Under the pieces are notes generated by a model. It worked only from the letters and a program-made list of their open reading frames with translations. It had not been told where the DNA came from and made no database searches. This document shows positions 30,316 to 35,362 of a stretch of DNA of 35,731 nucleotides, piece after piece. The stretch comes from Acidimicrobiia bacterium (lineage in GTDB: Bacteria; Actinomycetota; Acidimicrobiia; Spongiisociales; JAHEDJ01), in assembly GCA_029210695.1 (NCBI GenBank), contig JARGFH010000034.1, positions 6,301 through 42,031 of the forward strand, read 5' to 3'. How positions within the stretch are numbered: the first letter of the stretch is position 1; each line of letters begins with the position of its first letter. A program made the translations under genes and the position numbers.

Positions 30316-31632
30316 TTAGTCCTCGTAGTACTCGGAGCCGAGGTGGGTGATCAACTCCTCACCCATCCAATGGCGGAGGGTGTTCTTCAGCTTGATTTGC
30401 TGAATGAACAGGTCGTGCTCCGGGTAGAGGCCTTCCGCCACCTGAGGGCTCTTGTAGTAGAAGCTGAGCCATTCCTGGATTCCCGCCTTGCCTGCCCGCC
30501 TGGCCAGGTCCATATAGAGCGCCAGGTCGAGCACCAGGGGAGCGGCGAGGATCGAGTCACGGCACAGGAAATTCACCTTGATCTGCATGGGATAACCCAT
30601 CCACCCGAAGATGTCGATGTTGTCCCAGCCCTCTTTGTTGTCTCCGCGGGGCGGGTAATAGTTGATGCGAACCTTGTGGTAGAGGTCGCCGTAGAGGTCC
30701 GGGTACTGGTCGGGTTGGAAGATGTGCTCCAGTGCGCCCAGTTTTGAGACTTCCTTGCTGCGGAAGCTGCCGGGGTCGTCGAGGACCTCTCCGTCGCGAT
30801 TTCCGAGGATGTTGGTCGAGAACCAGCCGTCCACACCCAGCATGCGTGCCTTGAGGCCCGGCGCCAGGATCGTCTTGATCAGCGTCTGGCCGGTCTTGTA
30901 GTCCTTGCCGCTCACCGGCAATCCCTCGCGCAGCGCCAGTTCCAACAACGCAGGCGTGTCGACGGTGATGTTCGGCGCCCCGTTGGCATACGGCACACCC
31001 ATCGAGAGGGCTGCATATGCGTAGATCTGACTTGGAGCGATCTCCGGATCGTTCGTCTTCAAACCGTGTTCGAACGCTTCGAGGCTCTGATGAACGGCAC
31101 CCGGCTCGCGGTAGACCTCGGTGCTCCCGCACCACACCATCACCAACCGGTCGCAGGCGTTTTCGGTACGGAACCGGTCGATGTCGTCCATCAACTGCTG
31201 AGCCAGGTCGAGCTTGGTCTCGCCTTGCTTGACGTGCGTCCCGTCGAGCAGCCGCACGTACTCCCTGTCGAAGACGGCGGTCATCGGCTCGATCGCCTCG
31301 AGTTCGGCTCTGATCGGTTCGAGTTGACGGTCGTCCAGCACCCCGGCGGTGAGAGCGGCTTGATAGGCGTTTTCGGGGATCGGGTCCCAGCCGCCGAAGA
31401 CCAGGTCATCGAGGCCGGCCAGCGGGACGAAGTCCTTGATCAGCGGGTTGCGTTGCTCGGTGCGCTTGCCGAGTCGGATGCGTCCCGACTGCGTGAGTGA
31501 GCCGTGCAGCTGGGTGAGCTCCCTGCGGCCGGCCAACACTCCGGCGATGAAGGTGGTGGCCACTGCCCCCATTCCGGGGAGGAGGACGCCGAGCCTGCCT
31601 TCGGCCGGCTTGATTTCGAGTGGTGTGCTCAT
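30316..31632 (-). CDS. ino1: Inositol-3-phosphate synthase
   Basis: The enzyme converts glucose 6-phosphate to inositol 3-phosphate with NAD+, the first step toward phosphatidylinositol and mycothiol-type compounds in actinobacteria. The 438-residue protein has the N-terminal dinucleotide loop GVLLPGMGAVATTFIAGV, then VMVWCGSTEV, PVSGKDYKTGQTLIKT and NILGNRDGEVL. It also has WDNIDIFGWMGYPMQIKVNF and the conserved SILAAPLVLDL near the C-terminus. It is longer than the ~360-residue mycobacterial form. It diverges from the LysR gene across 114 bp. Confidence 0.93.
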   Translation of the reverse strand: MSTPLEIKPAEGRLGVLLPGMGAVATTFIAGVLAGRRELTQLHGSLTQSGRIRLGKRTEQRNPLIKDFVPLAGLDDLVFGGWDPIPENAYQAALTAGVLDDRQLEPIRAELEAIEPMTAVFDREYVRLLDGTHVKQGETKLDLAQQLMDDIDRFRTENACDRLVMVWCGSTEVYREPGAVHQSLEAFEHGLKTNDPEIAPSQIYAYAALSMGVPYANGAPNITVDTPALLELALREGLPVSGKDYKTGQTLIKTILAPGLKARMLGVDGWFSTNILGNRDGEVLDDPGSFRSKEVSKLGALEHIFQPDQYPDLYGDLYHKVRINYYPPRGDNKEGWDNIDIFGWMGYPMQIKVNFLCRDSILAAPLVLDLALYMDLARRAGKAGIQEWLSFYYKSPQVAEGLYPEHDLFIQQIKLKNTLRHWMGEELITHLGSEYYED

Positions 31633-31710
31633 GACGAGTGGATCCCTTGGGTTGAGATGGTCTCGTCAGCATATGGGTCAACCTGATCAGCGGACAAGTC
31701 AATGAAACCA

Positions 31711-31739
31711 TTCAGACACATAAGGAATTCCTATACAAT
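31711..31739 (+). promoter_or_regulatory. Promoter of the LysR gene
   Basis: TTCAGA (31711-31716), a 17-bp spacer and TACAAT (31734-31739) form a good promoter. The transcription start would fall 7 bp on, at the ATG at 31747, so the mRNA is probably leaderless. This argues against the ATG at 31738, which overlaps the -10 box. Confidence 0.55.
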
Positions 31740-31746
31740 GACCGAC

Positions 31747-32610
31747 ATGGACGTCACCGCTCCTGAACTCAACATTCAGCTACGCCAGCTCGCCTATCTG
31801 GCCGAAGTCGCACGAGGTACCAGCTGGACCGATGCCGCCGATCGGCTCGGTATCAGTCAGCCGGCCCTGTCCCAGTCCATGCACGAGCTGGAACGCCGGC
31901 TCGGTGTCCGGCTGTTCGAGGCCGTTGGGCGGCGGCGGGTGCTCACCGCCGAAGGCAGACAGGCGGTGGCGTATGCCCGTGACGTCCTCAATACCACCGG
32001 GGATCTGCGGTCCGAACTCCACGCCACCGGAACGACGTTGCATGGTCGGCTCAGGGTCGGCATGATCGATGCCGCCAGCCTCTACGTGCTCCCCGACGCC
32101 ATCCATGCCTTCCGGAGCAGACACCCGGACGTGGACCTCGAGCTCACCGTCGCCCCCTCGACCCCACTTCTCGATGGACTTCGCATTCTCGAGCACGACG
32201 TTGTCTTCGTCACCGGGCCGGTGGATGAACAGGGACTCAGCTCAGAGGTGATCCGCCATGAGCCGCTCTATCTCTACGGACCGGATGACGGTGATCCCGC
32301 CACCGGTGACTGGGTGATGTATCCAAGGAGCAGCCGGACCAGGGGCGTCATCGATCGCTTCTTCGCCGACGCCGGGTGGACGCCGCACATCATTCTCGAA
32401 AGTGCCAATCCGGCAGTGCTTACTCAGATGGTCGGCCTCGGGTTCGGATGGGCCGTCCTTCCCGAGGCAGTGGCTGAAGGGGGAATCACTCCCCTCGAGA
32501 AATCCCGGCCCGGACCGGTCGCCCGGCGCCTGCTGGCCGCCGTCTGGCGAGCATCCGCCGCCGGCAACCCTCGCCTGGCGGCCTTCCTGGCGGTGGCGAC
32601 CGGAGCGTGA
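31747..32610 (+). CDS. LysR-family transcriptional regulator
   Basis: The 287-residue protein has the N-terminal winged helix of the family (QLRQLAYLAEVARGTSWTDA, then DRLGISQPALSQSMHELERR) and a C-terminal substrate-binding domain from about residue 75 on. The effector is unknown. LysR regulators often control the divergent gene, here inositol-3-phosphate synthase, but no conserved T-N11-A site is certain in the 114-bp gap. The start at 31747 is chosen from the promoter geometry. It converges on the citramalate synthase gene with an 18-bp gap. Confidence 0.9.
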   Translation: MDVTAPELNIQLRQLAYLAEVARGTSWTDAADRLGISQPALSQSMHELERRLGVRLFEAVGRRRVLTAEGRQAVAYARDVLNTTGDLRSELHATGTTLHGRLRVGMIDAASLYVLPDAIHAFRSRHPDVDLELTVAPSTPLLDGLRILEHDVVFVTGPVDEQGLSSEVIRHEPLYLYGPDDGDPATGDWVMYPRSSRTRGVIDRFFADAGWTPHIILESANPAVLTQMVGLGFGWAVLPEAVAEGGITPLEKSRPGPVARRLLAAVWRASAAGNPRLAAFLAVATGA

Positions 32611-32628: not shown

Positions 32629-34191
32629 TCAGCCCGCATTCCGGATCAGCCCGAGAATCAATCCGTCGGTCAGCGCCTCCCACGAGGCTTCGATGACGTT
32701 CTCGTGCACTCCGATGGTTCCCCACAACGTCGTGTGATCGGACGTCTCCAAGAGGACGCGCACCGACGCCTCGGTGCCGTCTGATGAGTCGAGCACCCGG
32801 ACCCGGTAGTCCGTCAGCCGCAAGTCGGACACCTGCGGAAACCGTTCTCGCAGTGCGCTGCGGAGGGCCTGATCGAGCGCATGCACCGGCCCAACTCCCT
32901 CCCCGGTCGTCACGACCCGCTCACCATCCACGATCACCTTGACGGTGGCCTCCGCCACCACCTCTTCGTCGGCCCTGCGCTCGGTGAACACCCGGAATGA
33001 CTCCAGTTCGAAGTACTTCTGTTCCCAACCAGCCAGTTTTCTGACCAGTAGTTCGAATGATCCGTCGGCCGCCTCATAGTGGTAGCCCTGATGTTCCCGT
33101 TCCTTGACGACTTCGATCACCCGGGCGGCGAGCTCATCGTCCATTTCGAGGCCCAGTTCGGCTGCCTTCGAGGCGATCGAGGCCCTACCGGCCAGTTCCG
33201 AGACGACCATGCGACTGGCGTTACCCACCAGAGACGGGTTGATGTGCTCGTAGGCATCGGGCCGTCGGGCGAGGGCCGACGTGTGGAGCCCCGCTTTGTG
33301 AGTGAACGCCGATGTCCCGACGTACGGACGGTGGGGGTCGAGGGTGATGTTGACGACTTCGGCCACGTGATGGGAGATCGGACCGAGCATTTCGAGGCGG
33401 CCCTCCGGCAAGACCGCCATCCCTTCCTTGAGGATCAGATCGGGGATGAGCGTCGACAGGTCGGTGTTGCCGGTCCGTTCTCCGTATCCGTTGATGCAAC
33501 CCTGCACTTGCCTCACTCCGGCCCGGATGGCCGCCAGCGAAGACGCCACCGCAGTGCCGGCATCGTTGTGGAAGTGAACGCCGAGCTGAGCGTCCGGGAA
33601 GACCTGCTGAACGGCTGCAACGGTCTCGAGGATCTCGTGCGGCAGCGTTCCCCCGTTCGTGTCGCACAGCACCAGTCGTTCGGCGCCGGCGTCGAGCGCC
33701 ACCCGGAGGGTCGTGAGGGCAAAGTCCGGGTTGCCGTGGAACCCGTCGAAGAAGTGCTCGGCGTCGAAGAACACCCGGCGGTCGTGGTCACGCAGAAAGG
33801 CGACCGACTCCGCCACCATCCGGGCGCCTTCGTCGAGGTCGGTCCGGAGCGCCTCTCGAACGTGGTAGTCCCAGGACTTGCCGACGATGCAGATTGCTTC
33901 GGTTTCGGCGGCGAGCAAGGCGGCAAGCTGGGCGTCGTCCTCAACCGATCCGCGCGGGCGTCTGGTCGAACCAAAGGCCACGAGGGTCGCGGTTGTGAAG
34001 TTCAGCTCCGAACGGGCCCGTCGGAAGAACTCGTCGTCCTTCGGGTTGGCGCCCGGCCAGCCGCCTTCGACGTACTGCACCCCGAGATTGTCGAGCAGGC
34101 CGGCAATGCGCAGCTTGTCGCCGACGGTCAGCGAGATGCCCTCCTGCTGTGAACCGTCCCGCAGCGTCGTGTCGTAGATCTCGAGTGTCAT
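32629..34191 (-). CDS. cimA: Citramalate synthase (isoleucine pathway)
   Basis: The enzyme condenses pyruvate and acetyl-CoA to (R)-citramalate, giving 2-ketobutyrate for isoleucine without threonine. The 520-residue protein has the LeuA/CimA catalytic signatures: DTTLRDGSQQEG near residue 7, VLCDTNGGTLP, HFHNDAG and GCINGYGERTGNTDLSTL. A C-terminal LeuA-type allosteric domain follows from about residue 395. Length and the WPGANPKDDEFF segment fit the CimA branch rather than isopropylmalate synthase. The ATG at 34191 has GGGAG 5 bp upstream; frame open further upstream covers the leader and attenuator. The Ile-rich leader peptide supports the isoleucine assignment. Confidence 0.9.
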   Translation of the reverse strand: MTLEIYDTTLRDGSQQEGISLTVGDKLRIAGLLDNLGVQYVEGGWPGANPKDDEFFRRARSELNFTTATLVAFGSTRRPRGSVEDDAQLAALLAAETEAICIVGKSWDYHVREALRTDLDEGARMVAESVAFLRDHDRRVFFDAEHFFDGFHGNPDFALTTLRVALDAGAERLVLCDTNGGTLPHEILETVAAVQQVFPDAQLGVHFHNDAGTAVASSLAAIRAGVRQVQGCINGYGERTGNTDLSTLIPDLILKEGMAVLPEGRLEMLGPISHHVAEVVNITLDPHRPYVGTSAFTHKAGLHTSALARRPDAYEHINPSLVGNASRMVVSELAGRASIASKAAELGLEMDDELAARVIEVVKEREHQGYHYEAADGSFELLVRKLAGWEQKYFELESFRVFTERRADEEVVAEATVKVIVDGERVVTTGEGVGPVHALDQALRSALRERFPQVSDLRLTDYRVRVLDSSDGTEASVRVLLETSDHTTLWGTIGVHENVIEASWEALTDGLILGLIRNAG

Positions 34192-34206: not shown

Positions 34207-34234
34207 AAAAACCCCTCGCGCTGGGCGAAGGGTT
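34207..34234 (-). terminator. Attenuator terminator in the cimA leader
   Basis: On the minus strand AACCCTTCGC and GCGAGGGGTT form a 10-bp stem (one G-U pair), and the transcript ends in a run of U. It sits 16 bp before the cimA start codon and after the leader peptide, the layout of a transcription attenuator. Confidence 0.75.
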
Positions 34235-34238
34235 GGTG

Positions 34239-34264
34239 GCGCATACCGATAGCAGGGTATGCGC
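34239..34264 (-). promoter_or_regulatory. Leader hairpin between leader peptide and attenuator
   Basis: GCGCATACC and GGTATGCGC form a perfect 9-bp stem with an 8-nt loop. It begins at the base after the leader-peptide stop codon, so a ribosome at the stop codon would cover its first arm. It is the likely pause or switch hairpin of the attenuator. Confidence 0.7.
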
Positions 34265-34300
34265 TCAGTCGATAATGATGAAGGTGGCTGCAGCGGACAT
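34265..34300 (-). CDS. Isoleucine leader peptide of cimA
   Basis: A 12-codon frame encodes MSAAATFIIID and a TGA stop, with three consecutive isoleucine codons (ATC ATT ATC) close to the stop. It lies between a strong promoter and the attenuator hairpins of an isoleucine-pathway gene, as expected of an attenuation leader peptide. The ATG falls within a few bases of the inferred transcription start, so it is probably translated leaderless. Ribosome stalling at the Ile codons would sense charged tRNA-Ile. Confidence 0.75.
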   Translation of the reverse strand: MSAAATFIIID

Positions 34301-34309
34301 GTGGTGGGC

Positions 34310-34338
34310 AGTATGACTGATGCCCGACGTGGAGTCAA
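34310..34338 (-). promoter_or_regulatory. Promoter of the cimA leader
   Basis: On the minus strand TTGACT (34333-34338), a 17-bp spacer and CATACT (34310-34315) form a near-consensus sigma-70 promoter. Transcription should start about 7-9 bp on, at or just before the leader-peptide ATG at 34300. Confidence 0.65.
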
Positions 34339-34781: not shown

Positions 34782-34803
34782 TTGTGGCATGATTGTGGCA
34801 TGA
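34782..34803 (+). promoter_or_regulatory. Tandem 11-bp direct repeat over the antitoxin start (possible autoregulatory operator)
   Basis: TTGTGGCATGA occurs twice head to tail (34782-34792 and 34793-34803). The second copy includes the antitoxin ATG at 34800. TAGCGT (34774-34779) just upstream could be the -10 box. Antitoxins with ribbon-helix-helix or AbrB-type folds usually bind repeated sites in their own promoter. Confidence 0.5.
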
Positions 34804-35036
34804 CCAGAGTGAGAGTGAGTACCACGGTGGACGAGAGATTGCTCGAAGAGGCAAGACGCCTTCGAGCTGACGTCAACGACGCAGGGCTGATCGACGAAGC
34901 GCTCGCAGCGCTACTTGCACAACACAGGGCCGTCGAGATCGATGTGGCCTATAGCGCCTATGACGCTCAGCCGCTCGACCAACCCGACGAATGGGGTGAC
35001 CTGGCGTCTTTCCGTGAGGCCGCTGGGTCATCATGA
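34800..35036 (+). CDS. Type II antitoxin, ribbon-helix-helix/MazE-like
   Basis: The 78-residue protein begins [20 protein letters not shown], a short beta-strand followed by a helix as in ribbon-helix-helix antitoxins. It ends in an acidic, flexible region ([18 protein letters not shown]) of the kind that wraps the toxin. It should neutralise the downstream MazF-like toxin and repress their promoter. The ATG at 34800 is chosen because the conserved pattern starts immediately. Its stop overlaps the toxin ATG. Confidence 0.8.
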
Positions 35037-35362
35037 AGGATCTGCCAAGTCGCGGAGACGTTTGGTGGTGCGAACTACCTCAGATCTCCCGCCGACCCGT
35101 CGTTGTCCTGTCGCGTGACGTAGCAATACCGCGGCTCCGCCGAACGGTGATCGCTCCGTGTACGACCAACATCAGGGGCCTCCCCAGCGAGGTCGTGCTC
35201 GAACCAGAAGGCGATCCGATCCCTCGAACGTCGGCGGTGAATCTGGATTCGATCGAGAGCGTCTCGGTCGGAACGCTCACCGAGCGGCTGGGACGCCTGA
35301 GCGATGAGCGAATGCGCCAGGTATGCGAAGCGCTCAACGTCGCCGTCAATTGCTGCCCCTGA
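35033..35362 (+). CDS. mazF: MazF/PemK-family endoribonuclease toxin
   Basis: MazF toxins cut mRNA at short sequences and stop growth when free of antitoxin. The 109-residue protein has the family elements [53 protein letters not shown] and [15 protein letters not shown] in order and at near-normal length. The loop between the first two strands is shorter than in typical MazF, which often carry a GSE/GHE segment before RPV. All else looks intact. The ATG overlaps the antitoxin stop by 4 bp (ATGA). Confidence 0.88.

Follow-up and report, generated by a model that had tools for sequence, protein, structure and literature searches.

Textbook attenuation of transcription is a contest between two RNA folds, and the leader in front of the citramalate synthase gene cimA in an Acidimicrobiia bacterium raises the question of how a ribosome translating a leader peptide might control a terminator if the competing fold is missing. 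The gene lies on the minus strand (32629..34191, ATG at 34191) of the window, i.e., the whole stretch of 35,731 nucleotides that was analyzed. Its product, a protein of 520 amino acids, belongs to the NCBIfam equivalog TIGR00977 (679 bits at a cut-off of 450; E 3.4e-204).

Architecture of the cimA leader

All parts of the leader are located on the minus strand upstream of cimA within 132 bp. The promoter is composed of the −35 element TTGACT (34333..34338) and the −10 element CATACT (34310..34315), both conserved in relatives and separated by a spacer of 17 nt, and it is the sole sigma70-like site within 1 kb (one found, 0.1 expected). Downstream lies a leader ORF (34265..34300; ATG at 34300, stop codon TGA at 34267-34265) for the 11-residue peptide MSAAATFIIID with three consecutive Ile codons (34279-34271). 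The −10 box and the ATG are 9 nt apart, so that transcription is expected to start 0–5 nt 5' of the ATG, which would make the leader ORF leaderless or almost leaderless. A hairpin of nine perfect base pairs, P1 (34239..34264), is supported by folding and covariation and uses the base directly after the stop codon for its first pair, its arms being GCGCATACC (34264-34256) and GGTATGCGC (34247-34239). After a gap of 4 nt the intrinsic terminator and the start of its T run follow (34207..34234), consisting of the 10-bp hairpin AACCCTTCGC-CCAGC-GCGAGGGGTT (34234-34210) and then TTT; it is the sole terminator with a proper T run in 1 kb (two found, 0.4 expected). The promoter, the peptide, the hairpin following the stop codon and the terminator before cimA had been described in the initial annotation, and all of them were recovered here.

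The 106-nt leader RNA folds with −35.7 kcal/mol compared to −24.0 ± 3.2 kcal/mol for shuffled sequences (z −3.7). Searches of Rfam at gathering and at relaxed thresholds resulted in no relevant family in the leader, the weak matches belonging to irrelevant families, and no Rfam T-box was recognized at the gathering score. Similarly, a search of plasmid DNA revealed no sequence similarity to the leader.

As to the neighborhood, a MazF/PemK-like toxin gene (PF02452, E 5e-18; window 35033-35362, plus strand) is encoded approximately 460 bp upstream of the cimA promoter. A small ORF upstream of this gene and overlapping it presumably encodes the antitoxin and has no Pfam match, both together spanning window 34801-35362 on the plus strand. 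A gene for a LysR-type regulator (PF00126, PF03466; window 31702-32610, plus strand) faces the 3' end of cimA and is transcribed divergently from a gene for myo-inositol-1-phosphate synthase (30316-31632, minus strand).

Conservation of the leader in cimA loci and in other operons

For the comparison among relatives, 99 related genomes were searched with the CimA protein and 79 cimA loci of the same order were taken regardless of their upstream content. The same leader design was found in 79 of these 79 loci, which excludes chance, and in six further loci (L082, L085, L090, L091 and, from Ca. Actinomarina, L130 and L143). L081, with a CimA that is 97% identical, is from the same genus as the window organism, and named GTDB contigs assign the group to the class Acidimicrobiia. 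Codon, promoter and antiterminator statistics were obtained for 54 non-redundant cimA leaders. Ile is encoded at the codons −2, −3 and −4 before the stop in 49, 46 and 48 of the 54 leaders, respectively, and exactly one codon separates the last Ile codon from the stop in 48/54; AUC (118) and AUU (60) are used for Ile, next to a single AUA. The stop codon is TAG in 47/54 leaders, so that the G of the stop forms the first pair of P1. In all 84 called leaders P1 starts at an offset of −1 or 0 relative to the base after the stop and is separated by 0–7 nt from the terminator, and in the called cimA leaders it has a length of 22–34 nt. By the criteria applied, an intrinsic terminator lies between leader ORF and gene in 84 of 85 leaders; in the 85th (L130) the hairpin is weaker, and a long T run comes after it.

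The promoter is conserved as well, with a match of at least 5/6 to CATACT at the −10 position in 44/54 relatives and of at least 5/6 to TTGACC, 16–19 nt from the −10 box, in 48/54. The start codon follows the −10 box after 6–11 nt in the 54 relatives, and a Shine-Dalgarno-like sequence is absent from the leaders of 52 of them and present in two. The distance between terminator and cimA is variable (15–160 nt). Thus, the comparison with relatives proposed in the initial annotation gave the expected picture: what is kept comprises the run of Ile codons, the stop, P1 and the terminator, and drift is seen in the N-terminal codons, the loop of P1 and the gap between terminator and gene.

The leader caller favors the motif, as it selects the ORF richest in Ile together with the best hairpin in the vicinity of the stop. 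Moreover, the MAFFT alignment misplaces some P1 arms, and the pair counts were repeated with the stems anchored at their base. For P1, the eight base-anchored pairs form in 92% of cells and show 171 both-side changes, and for the terminator the base-anchored pairs are formed in 99% with 106 both-side changes, compared to 24–64% formed in the slid-register control. An independent pair count yielded 67 both-side changes versus 24.7 in shuffles, and none of 500 shuffles reached the observed number. A similar detector applied to 50 cimA upstream regions from other classes of the phylum made two unconvincing calls (L323, L333), both of which have no T run and were rejected as false. Together, this control and the covariation counts argue that the design is not an artefact of the motif-favoring detector.

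As the leader frame and the Ile codons are conserved in relatives, the reading of the locus as an Ile attenuator, put forward in the initial annotation, is supported. Judged from its sequence, the leader very probably attenuates cimA transcription by a ribosome-mediated mechanism in response to the charging of tRNA-Ile. The attenuator had also been taken to confirm that the LeuA-like enzyme encoded by cimA serves isoleucine; this role agrees with the TIGR00977 assignment, and its basis is the protein family as much as the leader.

The two Ca. Actinomarina loci show that AT-rich marine genomes keep the design, their peptide ending in MKKIIIII, P1 directly adjoining the terminator and P1 using G-U pairs. 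In one family of the order (f8; G011, G018, G031, G038, G044, G056, G060 and others) several near-complete genomes have no close CimA match and no such leader, suggesting a loss of the citramalate route.

A covariance model was built from the cimA leaders, which biases it to codons of branched-chain amino acids (BCAA). In the genome of the window organism it found two places, the cimA leader itself (65.6 bits) and a leader before ilvB-ilvN-ilvC-leuA (44.5 bits, E 2.9e-8; G000:C1:104032-104110 within L198, G000:C1:103800-109300). The latter has the peptide MFSTEILVLQ with codons for Ile, Leu, Val and Leu, a P1 starting in the stop codon and then a terminator. In the class Acidimicrobiia, 170 of 247 genomes have a match, and in its other orders the leader is found upstream of ilvB (e.g., LLVVA, VLVVT) or of leuB (VIVIP and similar). 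Across the phylum 57 of 396 genomes match, outside the class mostly at ilvB with the codons L-V-L-I, and these matches include a few at cimA (L260, L275, L276). These loci were found by the covariance model and their register is partly given by construction; the 79 cimA loci were found independently.

At L103 the gene order is a putative leuB, an ilvE-like aminotransferase gene, both assigned by reading the sequence, and cimA, with the putative leader upstream of leuB; cimA has no leader of its own at this locus because it is part of the leuB-ilvE-cimA operon. The same operon is observed at L203–L231 in other orders of the Acidimicrobiia, the leuB leader carrying Val and Ile codons, and the LeuB proteins of such operons may serve the citramalate pathway.

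Antiterminator search and a proposed switching step

In classical attenuators a segment upstream of the terminator pairs with one of the terminator arms. The best duplex of each terminator arm with the leader was compared to dinucleotide shuffles, and no excess complementarity was found in 54 cimA leaders (mean z +0.29 for the 5' arm and −0.10 for the 3' arm), in 24 ilvB leaders (+0.19 and −0.44) or in 24 leuB leaders (+0.58 and +0.09). As controls, the 5' arms of E. coli attenuators gave z values of −4.6 (thr), −1.2 (trp), −1.7 (his), −2.4 (ilvG) and −2.1 (leu); pheA was left out, as the region used (L166) does not contain pheL. Furthermore, P1 and terminator are disjoint in all 84 leaders. 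As far as can be read from the sequences, the classical mutually exclusive antiterminator is absent from these leaders, and the earlier remark that none was obvious by eye is thus upheld against shuffles and E. coli controls.

The window leader was also folded with a ribosome placed at each codon, as had been suggested in the initial annotation. The pairing probability of the terminator is 0.97 at every position. For P1 it is 1.00 if the ribosome sits at either of the first two Ile codons, lower at the third and 0 at the Asp codon and the stop. RNA folding alone therefore alters P1 only and leaves the terminator in place. Since thermodynamics predicts the terminator in every ribosome state, switching needs a steric or kinetic step.

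A candidate for such a step is provided by the distance between ribosome and polymerase, taken as the number of nucleotides that separate the P site from the active site of the polymerase at the termination point, which was set 8 nt beyond the stem. In 118 leaders covering all gene classes it amounts to 30.6 ± 2.5 nt if both hairpins are folded and a ribosome occupies the first sensor codon. P1 lengths in this set range between 23 and 41 nt without compensation by the rest of the distance (r 0.12), showing that the conserved quantity is the folded distance. For a ribosome at the stop codon and a melted P1, the distance is on average 44 nt (38–51) for cimA, 47 nt for ilvB and 41 nt for leuB. 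In the literature, 28 nt correspond to no free mRNA between both machines and a large collided fraction is seen at ≤37 nt (PMC11711091), and intrinsic termination in vitro drops from 21.5 to 9.9% if a ribosome follows the polymerase (PMC10135430); these distance limits were obtained for E. coli complexes, and actinobacterial polymerase and ribosome may differ.

These distances, the published collision limits and the effect of a trailing ribosome lead to a steric proposal for P1. If enough Ile-tRNA is available, the ribosome would reach the stop codon and, once this codon is in the A site, would by standard ribosome dimensions cover all nine bases in the 5' arm of P1. P1 would be melted, leaving approximately 44 nt between P site and active site of the polymerase, and the terminator would fold and stop transcription. 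If Ile-tRNA is scarce, the ribosome would stall on the Ile codons, and with the first of these in the A site P1 would, by the same dimensions, be left free. P1 could then fold between the stalled ribosome and the polymerase and shorten the link to approximately 30 nt, which is near the collision limit of 28 nt, so that the terminator hairpin would find no room in the exit channel and cimA would be transcribed. P1 would thus shorten the mRNA like a clip instead of offering an alternative pairing partner. We put this steric switching step forward tentatively, its chances being a little short of even, and consider the statement as a whole, an Ile attenuator of cimA combined with a steric switch, to be somewhat favored. 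Similarly, it is plausible, although somewhat less likely than not, that the leaders of cimA, ilvBNC-leuA and leuB-ilvE-cimA form a widespread class of actinomycetotal BCAA attenuators in which a hairpin at the stop codon folds only under a stalled ribosome and jams ribosome and polymerase, leaving the terminator no space, without alternative pairing.

A close rival to the steric clip is a direct block by P1, in which the helix 0–7 nt upstream cannot enter the exit channel and the base of the terminator stays open, the ribosome deciding merely whether P1 exists. It agrees with the short gap between P1 and terminator in all leaders and with the masked folding, in which P1 exists solely while the ribosome sits on the Ile codons. 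However, P1 would also form without any ribosome and result in constitutive readthrough, which is costly, and this reading appears rather unlikely. It is also unlikely that the leader is a classical attenuator with an exclusive antiterminator that was missed for being short, pseudoknotted or overlapping the terminator by few bases. The antiterminator of C. glutamicum ilvBNC has a mere trinucleotide in common with the terminator, and the duplex-energy test could overlook such a case (PMC11857589); M. tuberculosis ilvB1 is likewise modelled with exclusive hairpins (PMC13236596). Against a missed antiterminator stand the terminator arms at shuffle level in the cimA, ilvB and leuB leaders, the scores of −1.2 to −4.6 for the five E. 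coli 5' arms and the overlap of P1 and terminator in none of the 84 leaders.

The E. coli trp leader offers a known example of a leader-region hairpin at which the polymerase pauses, which counts in favor of P1 being a pause hairpin that synchronizes the leaderless ribosome; alternatively, P1 might be part of a tandem terminator, the terminator in either case being constitutive or otherwise controlled. Clusters of adjacent hairpins have been proposed elsewhere to induce termination (PMC8355165), which speaks for a tandem arrangement and against the steric reading. A pause or tandem function does not account for the fixed position of the Ile codons, the last of which is exactly one codon away from the stop, or for the start of P1 within the stop codon in most leaders, and it is improbable. 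Translational instead of transcriptional attenuation, as reported for cysteine genes of M. smegmatis (mentioned in PMC13236596), was rejected as highly improbable because the distance of 15–160 nt from terminator to cimA allows for no fixed element over the cimA ribosome site. Finally, a role of the P1 palindrome as a DNA operator was rejected, as the stem covaries and its sequence is not kept.

Relation to known attenuators

The cimA leader would work like the known amino-acid attenuators and shares the features of these that can be examined in a sequence: a putative short leader ORF with codons for the regulated amino acid and an intrinsic terminator between leader ORF and structural gene. 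The mutually exclusive hairpin of the trp and his type is missing, i.e., no antiterminator sequesters a terminator arm. With these leaders, amino-acid attenuation is extended to citramalate synthase, and an Ile role of LeuA-like enzymes in uncultured Acidimicrobiia is supported. They constitute a large, covariation-supported family in which sensor codons, stop and two disjoint hairpins stand in strict register and no competing fold is present. Should the steric model be true, this would be a clean natural case of ribosome-polymerase distance serving as regulatory variable.

The enterobacterial trp, his, thr, leu and ilvGMEDA attenuators are alike in having a leader peptide rich in codons for the product, followed by a terminator before the first gene. 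The cimA leaders differ from them in having no conserved antiterminator pairing, in their predicted leaderless start, in regulatory codons that end one codon before the stop and in a first hairpin that starts at the stop. The LEU element of leuA forms a pseudoknot, the base stem of which pairs leader codons with the Shine-Dalgarno box of leuA (Seliverstov 2005), whereas the cimA leaders consist of two simple hairpins at a distance of 15–160 nt to the gene. A leaderless BCAA peptide and a terminator are also found in the ilvB leader of S. lividans (MRTRILVLGKRVG; PMC8079986) and in other actinobacterial ilvB leaders (Seliverstov 2005, PMC1262725), whose BCAA codons either come to an end five codons ahead of the stop or overlap with the terminator (PMC8079986, PMC1262725). 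The mechanism of these ilvB leaders was described as unclear, and both surveys contain no cimA or leuB attenuator (PMC1262725, PMC8079986); in the open-access literature no attenuator was found reported for cimA.

The nearest studied relatives in function are the attenuators of C. glutamicum ilvBNC and M. tuberculosis ilvB1. The three-hairpin attenuator of C. glutamicum ilvBNC, with the ilvB-II motif, is also actinobacterial and has a leaderless BCAA peptide and a terminator (PMC11857589, PMC10272879). Its antiterminator overlaps the terminator by GCC and its first hairpin covers the leader start, whereas the boundary trinucleotide shared in this 'fast' type is not found in the 84 leaders, in which P1 and terminator are disjoint with a gap of 0–7 nt. 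M. tuberculosis ilvB1 uses LVVI codons and the same occupancy logic, a ribosome at the stop being proposed to mask a structure formed upon stalling; it differs in having been modelled with mutually exclusive hairpins (PMC13236596). With respect to the proposed switching step, E. coli pyrBI is a precedent, as a closely trailing ribosome prevents the terminator hairpin without any antiterminator (described in PMC10135430). pyrBI senses UTP via polymerase pausing, whereas for cimA the signal would be the stalling of the ribosome together with a hairpin that shortens the distance.
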